From: Bacillota bacterium | GTDB lineage: Bacteria; Bacillota; Desulfotomaculia; Desulfotomaculales; Pelotomaculaceae | Direction: 5' to 3' | Assembly: GCA_029555205.1 (NCBI GenBank) | Contig: JAKPTB010000143.1 | Coordinates: 1-64,000, forward strand | DNA length: 64,000 nt | In this document: positions 50,711-56,357 of the stretch, one piece after another | How the letters are laid out: the number at the start of each line of letters is the position of its first letter | Numbering within the stretch: the first letter of the stretch is position 1 | Translations under genes and position numbers: made by a program | The notes under the pieces: generated by a model | What the model saw: only the letters and a program-made list of their open reading frames with translations | Told to the model about the DNA's origin: nothing | The model's database searches: none

Positions 50711-51991
50711 TTAATCCATGAGAACCCTCGGAATGTAGAGGGAAAGATCCGGAACGTAGACCAGTAACAATAAAACTAGAATCATAATCAGGATAAAAGG
50801 GAGAACCCCCTTGATTACTTCCTCCAGCCTGGACTTGGCCATGGCGGTCACCACAAAGAGGTTCAAGCCCACGGGCGGCGTAATCATGGCCAGTTCCATG
50901 TTTACCGTCATAACAACGGCGAAGTGGATCAGGTCGATGCCGAGGACATTAAGCATGGGCAACAGAATAGGCATGGTGATCAGGGTAATGGCAACAGCTT
51001 CCAGGAATGTGCCCATGATGAAGAACATCAGGTTTGTGGCCAGGAAAAACATGTACTTGTTCAGGTTGTTTTCCGCGATCCAGCGGGCGGCCTCCATGGG
51101 CACCTGGTTCACCGTAAGGTACATGGCAAAAACCATAGCTGCAGCAATGATCAGGAAGATCATGGAGGAGATGTTGATGGAATTGCGAAATACTTCTCTC
51201 ATGTCCCGCAGCTTCAATTCCCTGTAAACAAACATCGAAACGATAATGGTATAAAAGACGGAGAGTACTGCGGCCTCGGTGGGTGTGACGATACCCATGT
51301 AAATGCTGCCCAGGATGAAGACGGGCAGGAAGGCCCCCGGCAGGGCTTTCAAGGATTTGCGCCAGCGCTCATCCCAGGATGCCTTGGGCAGGCGGCCGTA
51401 ATTTTTCCTTTTGGCAATTAATACGGCGCTGATAATTAAAATACTCGCCAGTATGATACCGGGGATAACACCGCCCATGAACAGCTTGCCAATATTTTCC
51501 TCGGTTACGACACCGTAGATAACCATGGTCACACTGGGCGGGATGAGAATGCCCAGCGTGCCGGAAGCTGCTACAAGTCCCATGGCGTAGCGCTTGGGGT
51601 AGCCTCCCTCGATCATGGCAGGCAGCATAATAGCGCCGATGGCGGCGGCTGTAGCCGGGCTGGAGCCGGAAATGGCCGCAAAAATCGCACAGGCCATAAT
51701 GGTCACAACGGCCAGGCCGCCGGGCAGGTGCCCGAACCAGGAACGCAGGGCTTCAATCAGGTATTTGGCAATGCCGCCCCGGGACATGGCCACACCTGCA
51801 AAGACAAAGGCGGGAATGGCTAGAAGGGGAGGCGACAACAGGGAGGCGAACATTCTCTGGACAATCATATAGAGGCTGAAATCGCTGGTCAAGGCCAGAA
51901 TAGTAATGGCAGCTATAGCCAGAGAGATGGCGATGGGGACATTTAAGAGAAATAGAACGATGAAAATACTAAAAAGCAGTACTGTCTCCAC
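50711..51991 (-). CDS. dctM: TRAP transporter large permease DctM
   Basis: Twelve-helix-type membrane subunit of a tripartite secondary transporter for organic acids, driven by a sodium or proton gradient. 426 residues from the preferred start. Family motifs include NVPIAISLAIAA, AAISGSSPATAAAIG, ASGTLGILIPPSV and ITPPVGLNLFV. The frame opens at 52042, but AAGGAGG lies about 11 bases before GTG 51991, which also matches homologue N-termini. It overlaps the end of dctQ by 23 bases. Confidence 0.92.
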   Translation of the reverse strand: METVLLFSIFIVLFLLNVPIAISLAIAAITILALTSDFSLYMIVQRMFASLLSPPLLAIPAFVFAGVAMSRGGIAKYLIEALRSWFGHLPGGLAVVTIMACAIFAAISGSSPATAAAIGAIMLPAMIEGGYPKRYAMGLVAASGTLGILIPPSVTMVIYGVVTEENIGKLFMGGVIPGIILASILIISAVLIAKRKNYGRLPKASWDERWRKSLKALPGAFLPVFILGSIYMGIVTPTEAAVLSVFYTIIVSMFVYRELKLRDMREVFRNSINISSMIFLIIAAAMVFAMYLTVNQVPMEAARWIAENNLNKYMFFLATNLMFFIMGTFLEAVAITLITMPILLPMLNVLGIDLIHFAVVMTVNMELAMITPPVGLNLFVVTAMAKSRLEEVIKGVLPFILIMILVLLLLVYVPDLSLYIPRVLMD

Positions 51992-52505
51992 CGGTATGGC
52001 CACCTCCTTTTTCCATTTCTTCCATCCATTGGCGGCCGCCATTTCTCAGAATTTGATAGAGTTTATCAATAAACCTGATGGAGAACAGCAATCCGCTGAC
52101 AGGTAAGATCAGGTTCACGATCCAGAGGGGAAACTGGCTGTCTGAGGAGCGCTGACCCGAGTTTATATAGGATTCAACCAGTTTATAGCCGTAGTAAGTA
52201 TAAAAAATGCAGAAGGCAAGCCCCAGGGTGTTGGAGAAGATACTGACCACCCATTTGACCCGCAGGGGCAGGATGTTATAAAGCATATCCACCTTGATGT
52301 GGTGATTGTCCCGCAGGGCCACGCAAAAGCCCACGAGAAGCCCCCAGATGATAAAATAAAGTGAAAACTCATCAAGCAAAGACTGGGGGCGGCCCCAGAA
52401 ATAGCGCATTACAACATTCAACATGATCATACAAAGTCCGATAAAGAGCAAACTACCCGACAAGTAATCTTCAAACGCCGCGTAGGCCCGTTTCAAACGT
52501 TCCAT
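51969..52505 (-). CDS. dctQ: TRAP transporter small permease DctQ
   Basis: 178 residues with four membrane segments. Typical core: VVMRYFWGRPQSLLDEFSLYFIIWGLLVG, then the hydrophilic RDNHHIKVDMLYNILP loop and a third helix. It bridges the binding protein and DctM. AAGGTGG precedes ATG 52505 on the minus strand. A stem-loop separates it from dctP. Confidence 0.9.
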   Translation of the reverse strand: MERLKRAYAAFEDYLSGSLLFIGLCMIMLNVVMRYFWGRPQSLLDEFSLYFIIWGLLVGFCVALRDNHHIKVDMLYNILPLRVKWVVSIFSNTLGLAFCIFYTYYGYKLVESYINSGQRSSDSQFPLWIVNLILPVSGLLFSIRFIDKLYQILRNGGRQWMEEMEKGGGHTGGDSTAF

Positions 52506-52557
52506 TTGTTTTCCACCTTCCTAATCCTTTGACAAATCAGGGCCTAATAAAGAGAAA

Positions 52558-52592
52558 GGGGACGTTCCGGCACACCCGGGAAAGACGTCCCC
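52558..52592 (-). terminator. stem-loop between dctP and dctQ, probable attenuator
   Basis: GGGGACGT (52558-52565) pairs with ACGTCCCC (52585-52592), extended by TCC/GGA-type pairs. On the minus strand it is followed by TTTCTCTTT. A partial terminator here would keep the binding protein in excess over the membrane subunits. Confidence 0.6.
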
Positions 52593-52603
52593 TGAAATGT
52601 GCG

Positions 52604-53626
52604 CTACTTATTGCAACTCTTAGCTGCTTCGATATATTCTGCGCCAATCTTGTCGGTGTACTCATCATAGACCGGCTTCATGGCTGCTACAAATTTCTCC
52701 CTGTCCTCTTCCGTCAGAGTATAAATTTCCATTTTGCCGCTGGCTTTTAATTCTTCAAAGCTTTTCTGGTTTTCTTCTTCCGCCAGCTGGCGTTCATAGA
52801 GAGTGGCTTCCTTCATGGCTTCCTCGATAATCTTTTTATTTTCCGGAGTAAGGGAATTCCAGAAGGTGGTATTGGTGAGAACTACGTAATCCAGGCGTCC
52901 GTGGTTGGAAACCGTCATATATTTCTGAACATCCTGGTAGTTCTGGGTGTCGATATTATTAAAGGTATTCTCCTGTCCGTCTACGGTTTTGTTATTGAGA
53001 CCGGTAAAAACTTCCGCAAAGGCCAGGGTCTGGGAACCGGCTCCCAGAGCCCTGAACTGGGCGTCCAGAACGCCGCCGCTCTGGGTCCGGAATTTTAAGC
53101 CTCGAAAATCTTCCGGAGTTTTCAGGGGCCGCTTGGAATTAGTGAAGTGTTTGGCGCCGTTGGGCCACCATGCCAGGCCGAGCATGCCCTGGGACTCAAG
53201 GGAATGCATCAGTTTCTGCCCCGCGGGACCATCGTAAAAATCATAGGCGGCCTGGTCGTCTTTAAACAGGAAGGGCATGTCCACAATTTGGAAAGCCGGT
53301 TCAAAACCCACCAGTTTGGTGACGGAAGGAGCGATAAACTGAACATTGTTGGCCTTTAACTGCTCCAGTTCCTCTTTATCGCCGTACAGCTGGGATGCCG
53401 GGAAAACAAGAACTTCAATTTTTCCGTTGGAATTCTGTTCAACAAGTTCCTTAAACTTTGTGACAGCTTTCCCCTTTGGGGTGGCTTCGGCCACAACATG
53501 CGTAAACTTAATTTTCAACACATCTCCCCCGCCTGCTGACGAGTCTTTTCCGCAGCCTGTCAGGGACATGATCATTAATCCTGCTAAAACAACGCACAAA
53601 AACATTATCCAGTTTTTCTTTTTCAT
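52604..53626 (-). CDS. dctP: TRAP transporter substrate-binding lipoprotein DctP
   Basis: Extracytoplasmic binding protein, 340 residues. The signal peptide ends in a lipobox (LTGC), so it is a lipoprotein. The carboxylate-binding Arg is in GLKFRTQSGGVLDAQF, with VFTGLNNKTVDGQEN following. DctP members bind C4-dicarboxylates or related acids; specificity cannot be told. ATG 53626 has AGGAGG upstream and is preferred to 53644. First gene of the operon dctP-dctQ-dctM. Confidence 0.92.
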   Translation of the reverse strand: MKKKNWIMFLCVVLAGLMIMSLTGCGKDSSAGGGDVLKIKFTHVVAEATPKGKAVTKFKELVEQNSNGKIEVLVFPASQLYGDKEELEQLKANNVQFIAPSVTKLVGFEPAFQIVDMPFLFKDDQAAYDFYDGPAGQKLMHSLESQGMLGLAWWPNGAKHFTNSKRPLKTPEDFRGLKFRTQSGGVLDAQFRALGAGSQTLAFAEVFTGLNNKTVDGQENTFNNIDTQNYQDVQKYMTVSNHGRLDYVVLTNTTFWNSLTPENKKIIEEAMKEATLYERQLAEEENQKSFEELKASGKMEIYTLTEEDREKFVAAMKPVYDEYTDKIGAEYIEAAKSCNK

Positions 53627-53685
53627 TTCCTGCCTCCTAATCATGTACTGTTTGGGGAAATAGGGGAATAAAAAACGATGCAGTA

Positions 53686-54213: not shown

Positions 54214-54402
54214 TTATAGTCTTGAAGTTTTGACAGGAGGTAGTAAGAATGTGGGCGAGCAGTATGTTGTATAATAATGTATTGGGCGGGAGTTGTTGCC
54301 GGCGCTCTCATTCTTGGGTTTAATATAAATATGGTAACATGCAATAACGTACACACAAAGGTAGGCAAGCATTGTCCCTAAAAAAATATCAAACCACACC
54401 AT
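54214..54402 (-). CDS. small single-span membrane protein
   Basis: 62 residues. One hydrophobic segment (about 5-27, GTMLAYLCVYVIACYHIYI) followed by a polar tail. AAGGAGGGG lies about 9 bases before ATG 54402 on the minus strand. The layout resembles small accessory proteins of symporters, but no match is certain and the tail is unusual. A palindrome of GntR type (54442-54457) lies just upstream. Coding is likely but function unknown. Confidence 0.5.
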   Translation of the reverse strand: MVWFDIFLGTMLAYLCVYVIACYHIYIKPKNESAGNNSRPIHYYTTYCSPTFLLPPVKTSRL

Positions 54403-54441
54403 TCATTTTCCCCTCCTTATAATTATTTGGATCCCCTGATT

Positions 54442-54457
54442 ATATTGTATACAATAT
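54442..54457. promoter_or_regulatory. GntR-type operator palindrome
   Basis: ATATTGTATACAATAT is a perfect 16-base palindrome fitting the FadR-subfamily consensus (TTGT..ACAA core). It overlaps a TATAAT-like element on the minus strand (54444-54439) upstream of the small membrane ORF. A FadR-type regulator is inferred; none is encoded in the window. Confidence 0.5.
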
Positions 54458-54645
54458 CCTAATTTGCGCAACCCATCACAAGATATTCGCAATTGTAAGT
54501 TTATTTAGAATAGATGAATAATAGAGATTTAACAATTCTAGCAAGAACGGGAAGCTTAAAACTCCCTTTCCCTTTAAATTTAAGATAAGCCGGCCGGGCA
54601 ATCAAGCCACAAGCTTTAACTCAATCAGAGAGGTCAACAATTCAG

Positions 54646-54672
54646 AGAGGTCCACAACTCCGGTGGACCTCT
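54646..54672. other. hairpin after the glutaredoxin-like gene
   Basis: AGAGGTCCAC (54646-54655) pairs with GTGGACCTCT (54663-54672), 2 bases past the stop on the minus strand. No T run follows. TCAGAGAGGTC is also directly repeated (54625 and 54642). Confidence 0.5.
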
Positions 54673-54673
54673 T

Positions 54674-54907
54674 TCAGGTAAGCAGTCTTTCCAGTTGGTT
54701 CCGATCAAATCCTACGACGACCTGTTCACCCACCGTTATTGTGGGTACAGCCATTCGGCCGGTTTTTCTGATCATTTCGCTGCGCGCGTCATTATTTTCA
54801 GCAACATTAAGTTCCCTGTATTTTACCCCCTTCTGTGAAAGAAACTCCTTCACGTGGGTACAATGGGGTCAGGTTGGTGTGGTATATACTGTTACATTTT
54901 CTGGCAT
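54674..54907 (-). CDS. selenocysteine-containing glutaredoxin-like protein (in-frame UGA)
   Basis: Read on the minus strand from ATG 54907 (GGAGG at 54919-54915, 7 bases upstream), the frame gives MPENVTVYTTPT, then TGA at 54871-54869, then PHCTHVKEFLSQKG onward through the cis-Pro loop MAVPTITV to a stop at 54676-54674. The 77 residues form a whole glutaredoxin/NrdH-like fold, and the TGA falls exactly where the first active-site Cys of a CPHC motif should be. That and the downstream hairpin indicate selenocysteine (U-P-H-C), probably a redox protein. It lies 83 bases after ugd. A nonsense mutation is the alternative. Confidence 0.82.
54835..54871 (-). promoter_or_regulatory. SECIS-like stem-loop for selenocysteine insertion
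   Basis: Starting 15 bases after the UGA on the minus strand, GTGAAG (54853-54848) pairs with TTTCAC (54840-54835), closing a short G-containing loop. CCCC just after the UGA can pair with GGGG beyond the hairpin. Size, G in the loop and distance of about 22 bases from the UGA fit bacterial SECIS elements bound by SelB. Confidence 0.65.
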
Positions 54908-54989
54908 AACTCATCCTCCAGGTTTTTTTATTATTGTTGGCTGTCCTTTCAATAAATATACAATAACAACGAAAACAACAGTTTATTGA

Positions 54990-56357
54990 CTATCTATCCG
55001 GTCTGCCGATGCCTTTATAAATAAAACCTTCTTTTCTTAGCATCCGGGGATCAAGGATATTTCTGCCGTCAACAATTACAGCTTGCTTCATGACGCCTTT
55101 AAGCTGATTATAATCGAGATTCCTGAATTCCTTCCATTCCGTGACAATAATTAGAGCGTCAGCATTATTTGCTGCTTTTAAGGCACTGTGCTCATATGTG
55201 ACACTCAGCTCAGGATGCTGCCTTTTGCATTCATCCATCGCTGCCGGATCATATACCTTAACCACGGCCCCTTTTTCAAGCAGGCCGGAGATAATTTCCA
55301 GACTCGGGGCATCCCTTAAATCATTTGTATTGGGTTTAAAAGAAAGGCCCAGGATCCCGATGGTCCGCCCTCCCAGATCCCCAAGCAATTCCTCCAGGTC
55401 CTGAACTATTTTTTGCCGCTGCCGGGTGTTCACCTGAACCGCTGCGTCAATTATTTGCGGGAAATAACCATAATTTCCTGCTGTATGAAGTATGGATGCA
55501 AGATCTTTACCGAAACAACTCCCGCCCCAACCGATGCCTGCATTTAAAAACTCCGGGCCAATCCTGGGGTCCAGGCCGATTCCCCTGGAAATAACGGTTA
55601 CATCCCCGCCTACCCGCTCGCAGATATTGGCAATTTCGTTGATAAAGCTGATTTTTGTGGCCAGGAAAGCATTGGCTGCATATTTGATCATTTCTGCGTT
55701 TACGGGTGTTGTGATGATTAATTCAACCTTTTTCAACTGACCGGGCCTGGGAGGGATACCGGGCAAGTTTCCGAAGGTTTGTTCAATGATAGGCCTGTAA
55801 AGATCCCTGATAATTTTAACAGAACGCTGACAGCGGGCCCCGAGGACAATCCTGCCGGGGTAGACAGTGTCCCAAAGGGCGTTTCCTTCCCGCAAAAATT
55901 CAGGGTTGCTGACTACACCAAAGTGGCTTTGCCCGCCCTTTTGGCTGCTGAGGATGGAGGTCAGCTTACTCCAGGTTCCGACAGGTACTGTGGACTTGGT
56001 GACAACAACCGTGAATCTTTCTGGATCAAGGGATTCTCCGATTTGCCTGGCCGCTGAAAAAAAACTGCTGAGATCCGGTTCCCCGGTTTTCAGGGCAGGG
56101 GTGCCGACAGCAATAATAATCACATCGGAAATTTGATAAGCCGGATGGGGAGAGCAGGTGAAGAGGAGTTGACCGCTGTCAACATTAACCTCAACGAGCT
56201 CTTTCAATCCTTTTTCATAAACCGGCACAATCTTTTTTTTAAGGCTTTCAATTTTTGCAGAATCCCGGTCATAACAAAAAACTTTGTGCCCAAAGGATGC
56301 CAGGCAGGCCCCTGTAACAAGTCCTACATAACCCATTCCGACAACTGAGATAATCAT
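54990..56357 (-). CDS. ugd: UDP-glucose 6-dehydrogenase
   Basis: Oxidises UDP-glucose to UDP-glucuronate with two NAD. 455 residues: Rossmann start VVGMGYVGLVTGACLA, NPEFLREGNA, the catalytic Cys in GWGGSCFGKD, and the C-terminal LGLSFKPNTNDLRDAPS. ATG 56378 is rejected in favour of ATG 56357, which follows GGAGG and begins MIISVVGMGYVG as homologues do. It is divergent from the polysaccharide genes and probably supplies them. Confidence 0.94.
   Translation of the reverse strand: MIISVVGMGYVGLVTGACLASFGHKVFCYDRDSAKIESLKKKIVPVYEKGLKELVEVNVDSGQLLFTCSPHPAYQISDVIIIAVGTPALKTGEPDLSSFFSAARQIGESLDPERFTVVVTKSTVPVGTWSKLTSILSSQKGGQSHFGVVSNPEFLREGNALWDTVYPGRIVLGARCQRSVKIIRDLYRPIIEQTFGNLPGIPPRPGQLKKVELIITTPVNAEMIKYAANAFLATKISFINEIANICERVGGDVTVISRGIGLDPRIGPEFLNAGIGWGGSCFGKDLASILHTAGNYGYFPQIIDAAVQVNTRQRQKIVQDLEELLGDLGGRTIGILGLSFKPNTNDLRDAPSLEIISGLLEKGAVVKVYDPAAMDECKRQHPELSVTYEHSALKAANNADALIIVTEWKEFRNLDYNQLKGVMKQAVIVDGRNILDPRMLRKEGFIYKGIGRPDR

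Follow-up and report, generated by a model that had tools for sequence, protein, structure and literature searches.

How should a glutaredoxin-like gene be read when its thirteenth codon is a stop? In the window, by which we mean the whole stretch of 64,000 nucleotides analysed here, such a gene occupies positions 54674-54907 on the minus strand. It runs from an ATG at 54907-54905 (coordinates worked out by hand from the sequence) to a terminal stop at 54676-54674 that is also a TGA, and would encode 77 residues with a U13-P-H-C16 active site, in which the in-frame UGA of codon 13 (54869-54871) is the putative selenocysteine (Sec) codon, and the TGT of codon 16 (54860-54862) encodes the resolving Cys of the UxxC motif. 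Translation of the minus strand places no internal stop in the 77-codon frame other than the TGA at codon 13, and a GGAGG ribosome-binding site is located at 54915-54919, with 7 bases between it and the ATG. Pro55, within the V-P-T of the thioredoxin-fold loop, is encoded at 54743-54745; we take it to be the cis-Pro of the glutaredoxin fold. The original prediction of a 77-residue, glutaredoxin-like read-through frame with its TGA at codon 13 was correct in coordinates, codon number and length, as it was for the lack of further stops, the good ribosome site and, with the assumption just made about Pro55, the intact cis-Pro loop. It also held that conventional callers would report just a plus-strand ORF here. 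That ORF is present (108 aa, plus strand, 54663-54989, at a 50-aa limit), but it is not alone, as the same limit also yields a 59-aa, GTG-started piece at 54674-54853 of the minus strand, which lacks the active site. Our answer is that the gene encodes a Sec-containing glutaredoxin of the YruB/Uxx-star type, with its UGA codon 13 decoded as Sec by means of a hairpin, a reading for which we estimate a probability of roughly 0.96. Its computed basis consists of a conserved reading frame, the exchange of UGA for Cys, constrained hairpin codons, a full Sec machinery and a glutaredoxin fold.

Family membership follows from three profiles. In the NCBI profile search, TIGR02196 (YruB family) is matched with 97.5 bits, its cut-off being 88.55 (E 4.6e-28), and this match is continuous across the TGA, with residues 5-76 aligning to positions 2-73 of the 74 in the profile. 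NF041212, the model for Uxx-star glutaredoxin-like (seleno)proteins, scores 67.6 bits against a curated cut-off of 66, and Pfam PF00462 (glutaredoxin) 72.6 bits against one of 22.9. As such, the protein is barely above the cut-off for NF041212 and scores higher against TIGR02196, while the name of the latter family is silent on Sec forms. NF041212 nevertheless matches all 18 aligned proteins, that of the window included, at E <= 1e-10, and residue 13 (entered as C for U), C16 and P55 are invariant in all 18. The UXX-star families are reportedly the subject of a paper by Haft and Tolstoy of 2025. An AlphaFold model from the 18-row alignment reaches a pLDDT of 90.4 and a pTM of 0.79, and its best PDB match in Foldseek is 7c10, a dithiol cGrx1, at 53% identity, with a TM-score of 0.90-0.91 by query (0.90/0.95 for the pair) and an rmsd of 0.8; 7c10 is the top sequence match as well (2.7e-20). 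The frame is more than would be expected by chance, given that a single HMM match spans the TGA and that exactly one in-frame TGA is present in 48 of the 50 best matches from the class.

The class survey behind that last figure covered 113 genomes, the window's own included, 75 of which hold a match at E <= 1e-6. Among the best 50 rows (E <= 3.1e-22, again including the window), the two without any in-frame TGA have Cys instead. The 48 weaker rows (<=45% identity) comprise 38 that are stop-free, 9 with one TGA and 1 (G014) with a TAA; many of the weaker matches are presumably glutaredoxins of other kinds. Counting genomes with a match at E <= 3.1e-22 and one in-frame TGA, we find the Sec form in 47 of the 113, that of the window among them. 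We read 43 loci in full, counting that of the window and several genomes that occur twice. At codon 13, 41 of them have TGA, L046 has TGT, and L023, a Cys form from a Kazan-division genome, has TGC. Removal of identical 231-base rows reduces these 43 loci to 32 distinct ones, and dropping L023 as well leaves 31 rows, which we used for codon use, selection and the smaller of two covariation analyses; this set includes the Cys form L046, and has TGA in 30 of its 31 rows. Further Cys forms were found in L059 and L062-L066, so that the Cys homologues that the original prediction had suggested looking for at this codon do exist. A GGAGG or near form precedes the gene in 40 of the 43 loci as judged by eye, two of the others being cut by a contig end and L023 having none. 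Moreover, the TGA is present in two strain-named relatives whose titles do not contain 'MAG', Pelotomaculum propionicicum MGP (L015) and P. terephthalicicum JT (L017), and cannot therefore be put down to faulty assembly of a single bin.

These data bear directly on whether the TGA could be a true stop in a decaying glutaredoxin, from which either the 59-residue piece or nothing at all is made. In favour of such a pseudogene, the conventional ORF listing has nothing in this frame except the 59-aa remnant that starts at a GTG. A decaying gene is, however, difficult to reconcile with a TGA that recurs at codon 13 in 41 of 43 loci, or with the best 50 matches, which lack any stop other than one TGA; where scattered stops or frameshifts in relatives would have pointed to decay, there is one conserved TGA. 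The same is true for selection. Nei-Gojobori comparisons were made with 11 relatives, picked out of the other 30 distinct rows. The nonsynonymous rate per site is below the synonymous one in 11 of 11 comparisons for the part after the TGA, and in 10 of 11 for codons 2-12, which precede it; 10 of the 11 pairs show this on both sides. The exception is L018, where the rate before the TGA is slightly higher for nonsynonymous than for synonymous changes, on four changes in all. The lower nonsynonymous rate on both sides indicates that both parts evolve as one protein. Based on the class-wide TGA at codon 13 and selection on both sides of it, we reject the pseudogene, which we consider extremely improbable.

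Several observations from the same survey concern the breadth of the family. Altered motifs occur in four Sec forms, with U-L-Y-C (L053), U-P-W-C (L058), U-P-Y-C (L060) and U-P-S-C (L061) at the place of U-P-H-C. L067, L069 and L070 make up a group of Sec glutaredoxins at greater distance, and genome G090 carries two of these (L069 and L070) besides the close relative L040. A collection of plasmids gave 194 matching records, in each of which the best place is below 60% identity; the annotated records among the ten plasmid matches listed are glutaredoxins.

Decoding of UGA as Sec requires dedicated machinery, and the original prediction named selA, selB, selC and selD as the genes to look for; absence of selB, selC or selD would have spoken against it. 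All were found in the window's genome, tRNA-Sec included: selA at 633.3 bits, selB at 392.1 bits together with a neighbouring piece and adjoining selA on the same contig, tRNA-Sec at 69.8 bits with an anticodon TCA according to ARAGORN, and selD at 393.4 bits, each over its cut-off. It should be noted that in 14 control genomes the models of selB, tRNA-Sec and selD match 14 out of 14 times at E <= 0.001, and that of selA 4 times, while over the cut-off these numbers are 2 for selB, 5 for tRNA-Sec, 2 for selD and 1 for selA; because selB, selD and tRNA-Sec have below-cut-off matches in all controls, only matches over the cut-off were counted. A second tRNA-Sec match over the cut-off, L006 at 48 bits, is more plausibly an ordinary tRNA. 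The selD gene (L009:1501-2427, minus strand) has an in-frame TGA of its own near the start of the match, in the context A-G-U-A-A-K, and the SelD of this genome is therefore likely a selenoprotein itself. Contamination of the assembly is 8.46%; three genomes of the same genus (G086-G088) contain both the gene and selA.

Could the UGA instead be read as another amino acid, such as Trp under code 4, or be subject to general read-through? No particular observation speaks for this. TGA is also the terminal codon of the gene itself, which is one of 6 among the 43 loci to end in this way, and release factor 2 is present in the genome; together these imply that UGA has both meanings here. Furthermore, homologues exchange the UGA for Cys, and a tRNA-Sec with anticodon TCA and SelB are at hand. 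On these four grounds a reassigned UGA was rejected as well, and we attach hardly any probability to it.

The remaining element of Sec decoding is the signal that follows the UGA. A bSECIS-like hairpin is located at 54835-54853 of the minus strand, with an 8-bp stem, a GUU apical loop and 23 bases from UGA to loop; it starts, as originally predicted, 15 bases past the UGA. Folding of the region downstream of the UGA, proposed as a check, gave a divided result: the hairpin by itself (54853-54835) has an energy of -8.3 kcal/mol and a z-score of -3.94, with 0 of 200 shuffles as good, but a longer fold, taking in 62 bases counted from the UGA, does not stand out (z -1.36, equalled by 16 of 200 shuffles). 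According to a 2026 review (PMC13188914), a bSECIS has a loop of 3-9 bases, a stem of 4-16 bp, an energy of <= -7.5 kcal/mol, a G among the first two loop bases and a UGA-to-loop distance of 16-37 bases, and the window hairpin falls within all of these limits.

Since the stem lies within coding sequence, one must consider whether the hairpin merely results from conservation of the peptide VKEFLS, with Sec being inserted via other signals. This would agree with the weak covariation in the stem. In the 31 sequences, two-sided changes occur in 0 of 8 pairs, and in an alignment of 39 distinct rows in 1 of 8 pairs, comprising 2 cells; on both the two-sided and the covariation measures, slid controls are similar to the hairpin. 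The share of cells that can pair is 93.5% and 91.7%, respectively, versus at most 73.8% in the slid controls. (The 39-row alignment excludes L046, and as L022 and L054 have the same row, it holds 39 distinct rows out of 40.) The second stem pair is C-G rather than U-A in L069 and L070. Given the weak covariation, the case for the hairpin rests on codon constraint and on the contrast between Sec and Cys forms. Val19, Glu21 and Leu23, each the same residue in all 31 rows, have codons that are frozen or nearly so, unlike the other codons of the gene: Val19 is GTG in 31 of 31, where nine of the other ten Val columns use four codons and one uses three; Glu21 is GAG in 31 of 31, where eight of the nine other Glu columns prefer GAA and one is even; and Leu23 is CTT or CTC in 31 of 31. 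At Lys20, the alternation between AAG and AAA retains pairing to U. Two columns outside the stem are monomorphic too, Lys29 (AAA, 18 of 18) and Gln62 (CAG, 18 of 18), which suits an origin in the peptide; the constraint on the stem codons is strong, yet codons are frozen elsewhere in the gene too.

The Cys forms speak against such an origin: where their peptide is similar, it is encoded by different codons and the hairpin does not form. In L059 the peptide VKEFL is retained, written as GTA-AAA-GAA-TTT-TTA, and the hairpin site reaches 0.0 kcal/mol; other non-folding Cys homologues have much the same codons there. More generally, 7 of 8 Cys forms range from 0 to -1.1 kcal/mol, the hairpin being absent, whereas a 23-base hairpin slice has a mean of -7.6 kcal/mol in 40 Sec forms, although 18 of these 40 are weaker on this slice than the published limit of -7.5. 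In this comparison L022 and L054 were both counted, and L068, a Cys form whose register is shifted by one codon, was excluded. We thus find it very improbable that the hairpin merely accompanies the peptide, if slightly less so than for the two readings rejected above, and prefer to see it as the SECIS element of the gene. The one Cys form that does fold is L046 (L046:1498-1734, genome G093), which has TGT at codon 13, an intact hairpin of -9.2 kcal/mol, and a genome that retains selA and selB. Most simply, this would represent a recent change from Sec to Cys that left a relic SECIS behind. Six Cys-form genomes were checked for the machinery: selA is present in five, and selB over the cut-off in five. 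The sixth, G084, is 70% complete; it gave no selA match, and its selB matches are below the cut-off.

The surroundings of the gene were compared between the window and 12 other loci (L011-L022). A UDP-sugar dehydrogenase upstream is common to the window, L011 and L018, and a large ORF on the opposite strand, which by its look we take to be a penicillin-binding protein, follows downstream in 8 of the 12 loci, adjoining the gene in six and lying about 1.8-1.9 kb off in L020 and L022. In this comparison, neither of the shared neighbours points to a partner. Three minus-strand genes at 50711-53644 of the window presumably form a TRAP-type transporter, judging by their look. One base past the stop codon, at 54646-54672, we noticed by eye an inverted repeat whose arms form a perfect 10-bp stem closed by a 7-base loop, a possible terminator without a clear T-run. 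The repeat is too short for the settings of our inverted-repeat scan, which found none; promoter and terminator scans were uninformative, and an Rfam search of 54400-55100 returned three matches, all below their gathering scores.

The closest known counterpart is cGrx1 of Clostridium oremlandii (PDB 7c10, 7c12 and 7c13), a protein of another organism that the window protein resembles at the identity and TM-scores given above. Its C-P-H-C at 13-16 aligns with that of the window protein (C for U) under the same residue numbers, and the window protein is one residue longer near position 49. According to the cGrx1 study (PMC7642778), both cGrx1 and the MsrA of C. oremlandii occur natively as selenoproteins; the motif of cGrx1 is U(or C)PXC, the protein is the proposed reductant of MsrA, and its authors worked with forms in which Cys had been put in for the Sec residues. 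Sec glutaredoxins have also been listed, in the tables of PMC1794560, for Moorella thermoacetica, Alkaliphilus metalliredigenes and Geobacter sulfurreducens; Desulfotomaculum reducens has no glutaredoxin entry in that table. The first three, two of which belong to the Clostridia, are anaerobes or facultative anaerobes with the same Sec form, and the likeness to the window protein is one of listing rather than of sequence. A Sec-containing glutaredoxin furthermore appears in a table of experimentally verified prokaryotic selenoproteins in the review cited above (PMC13188914). Among the papers listed on both Pelotomaculum and selenoproteins, none concerned this gene by title or the beginning of the abstract. 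With the family already modelled (NF041212), and cGrx1, which has the same motif, described as a native selenoprotein, both the family and its Sec form are known, and the window gene adds a member but little that is conceptually new.

How would such a protein be made and used? We envisage that SelB carrying Sec-tRNA(UCA) binds the hairpin 3' of the UGA, and that Sec is delivered there in competition with release factor 2. In the presumably redox-active protein, the selenolate of Sec13 would then attack oxidised thiols or selenols of client proteins, after which Cys16 would resolve the mixed bond and an electron donor would re-reduce the glutaredoxin; we infer these steps from the family. By analogy with C. 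oremlandii, MsrA may be among the clients. The MsrA of that organism is a selenoprotein, in contrast to the single MsrA match in the genome of the window, which has no in-frame stop. Glutamate-cysteine ligase (PF04262) has no match in the genome, but the same model matches just 2 of the 14 control genomes, so that independence of the Sec-glutaredoxin from glutathione should be treated as a lead only. A tentative and rather doubtful extension would be a glutathione-free Sec-glutaredoxin that acts as a stand-alone selenol carrier, with a reductant resembling thioredoxin reductase and with clients of the Cys type such as MsrA, L046 then being a freshly lost Sec site.

For the organism and its relatives, the finding means that the Sec form of this glutaredoxin is widespread in the class. 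The gene of the window is a clean case of one that is truncated by ordinary stop-codon rules, and the evidence is enough for it to be annotated with Sec.
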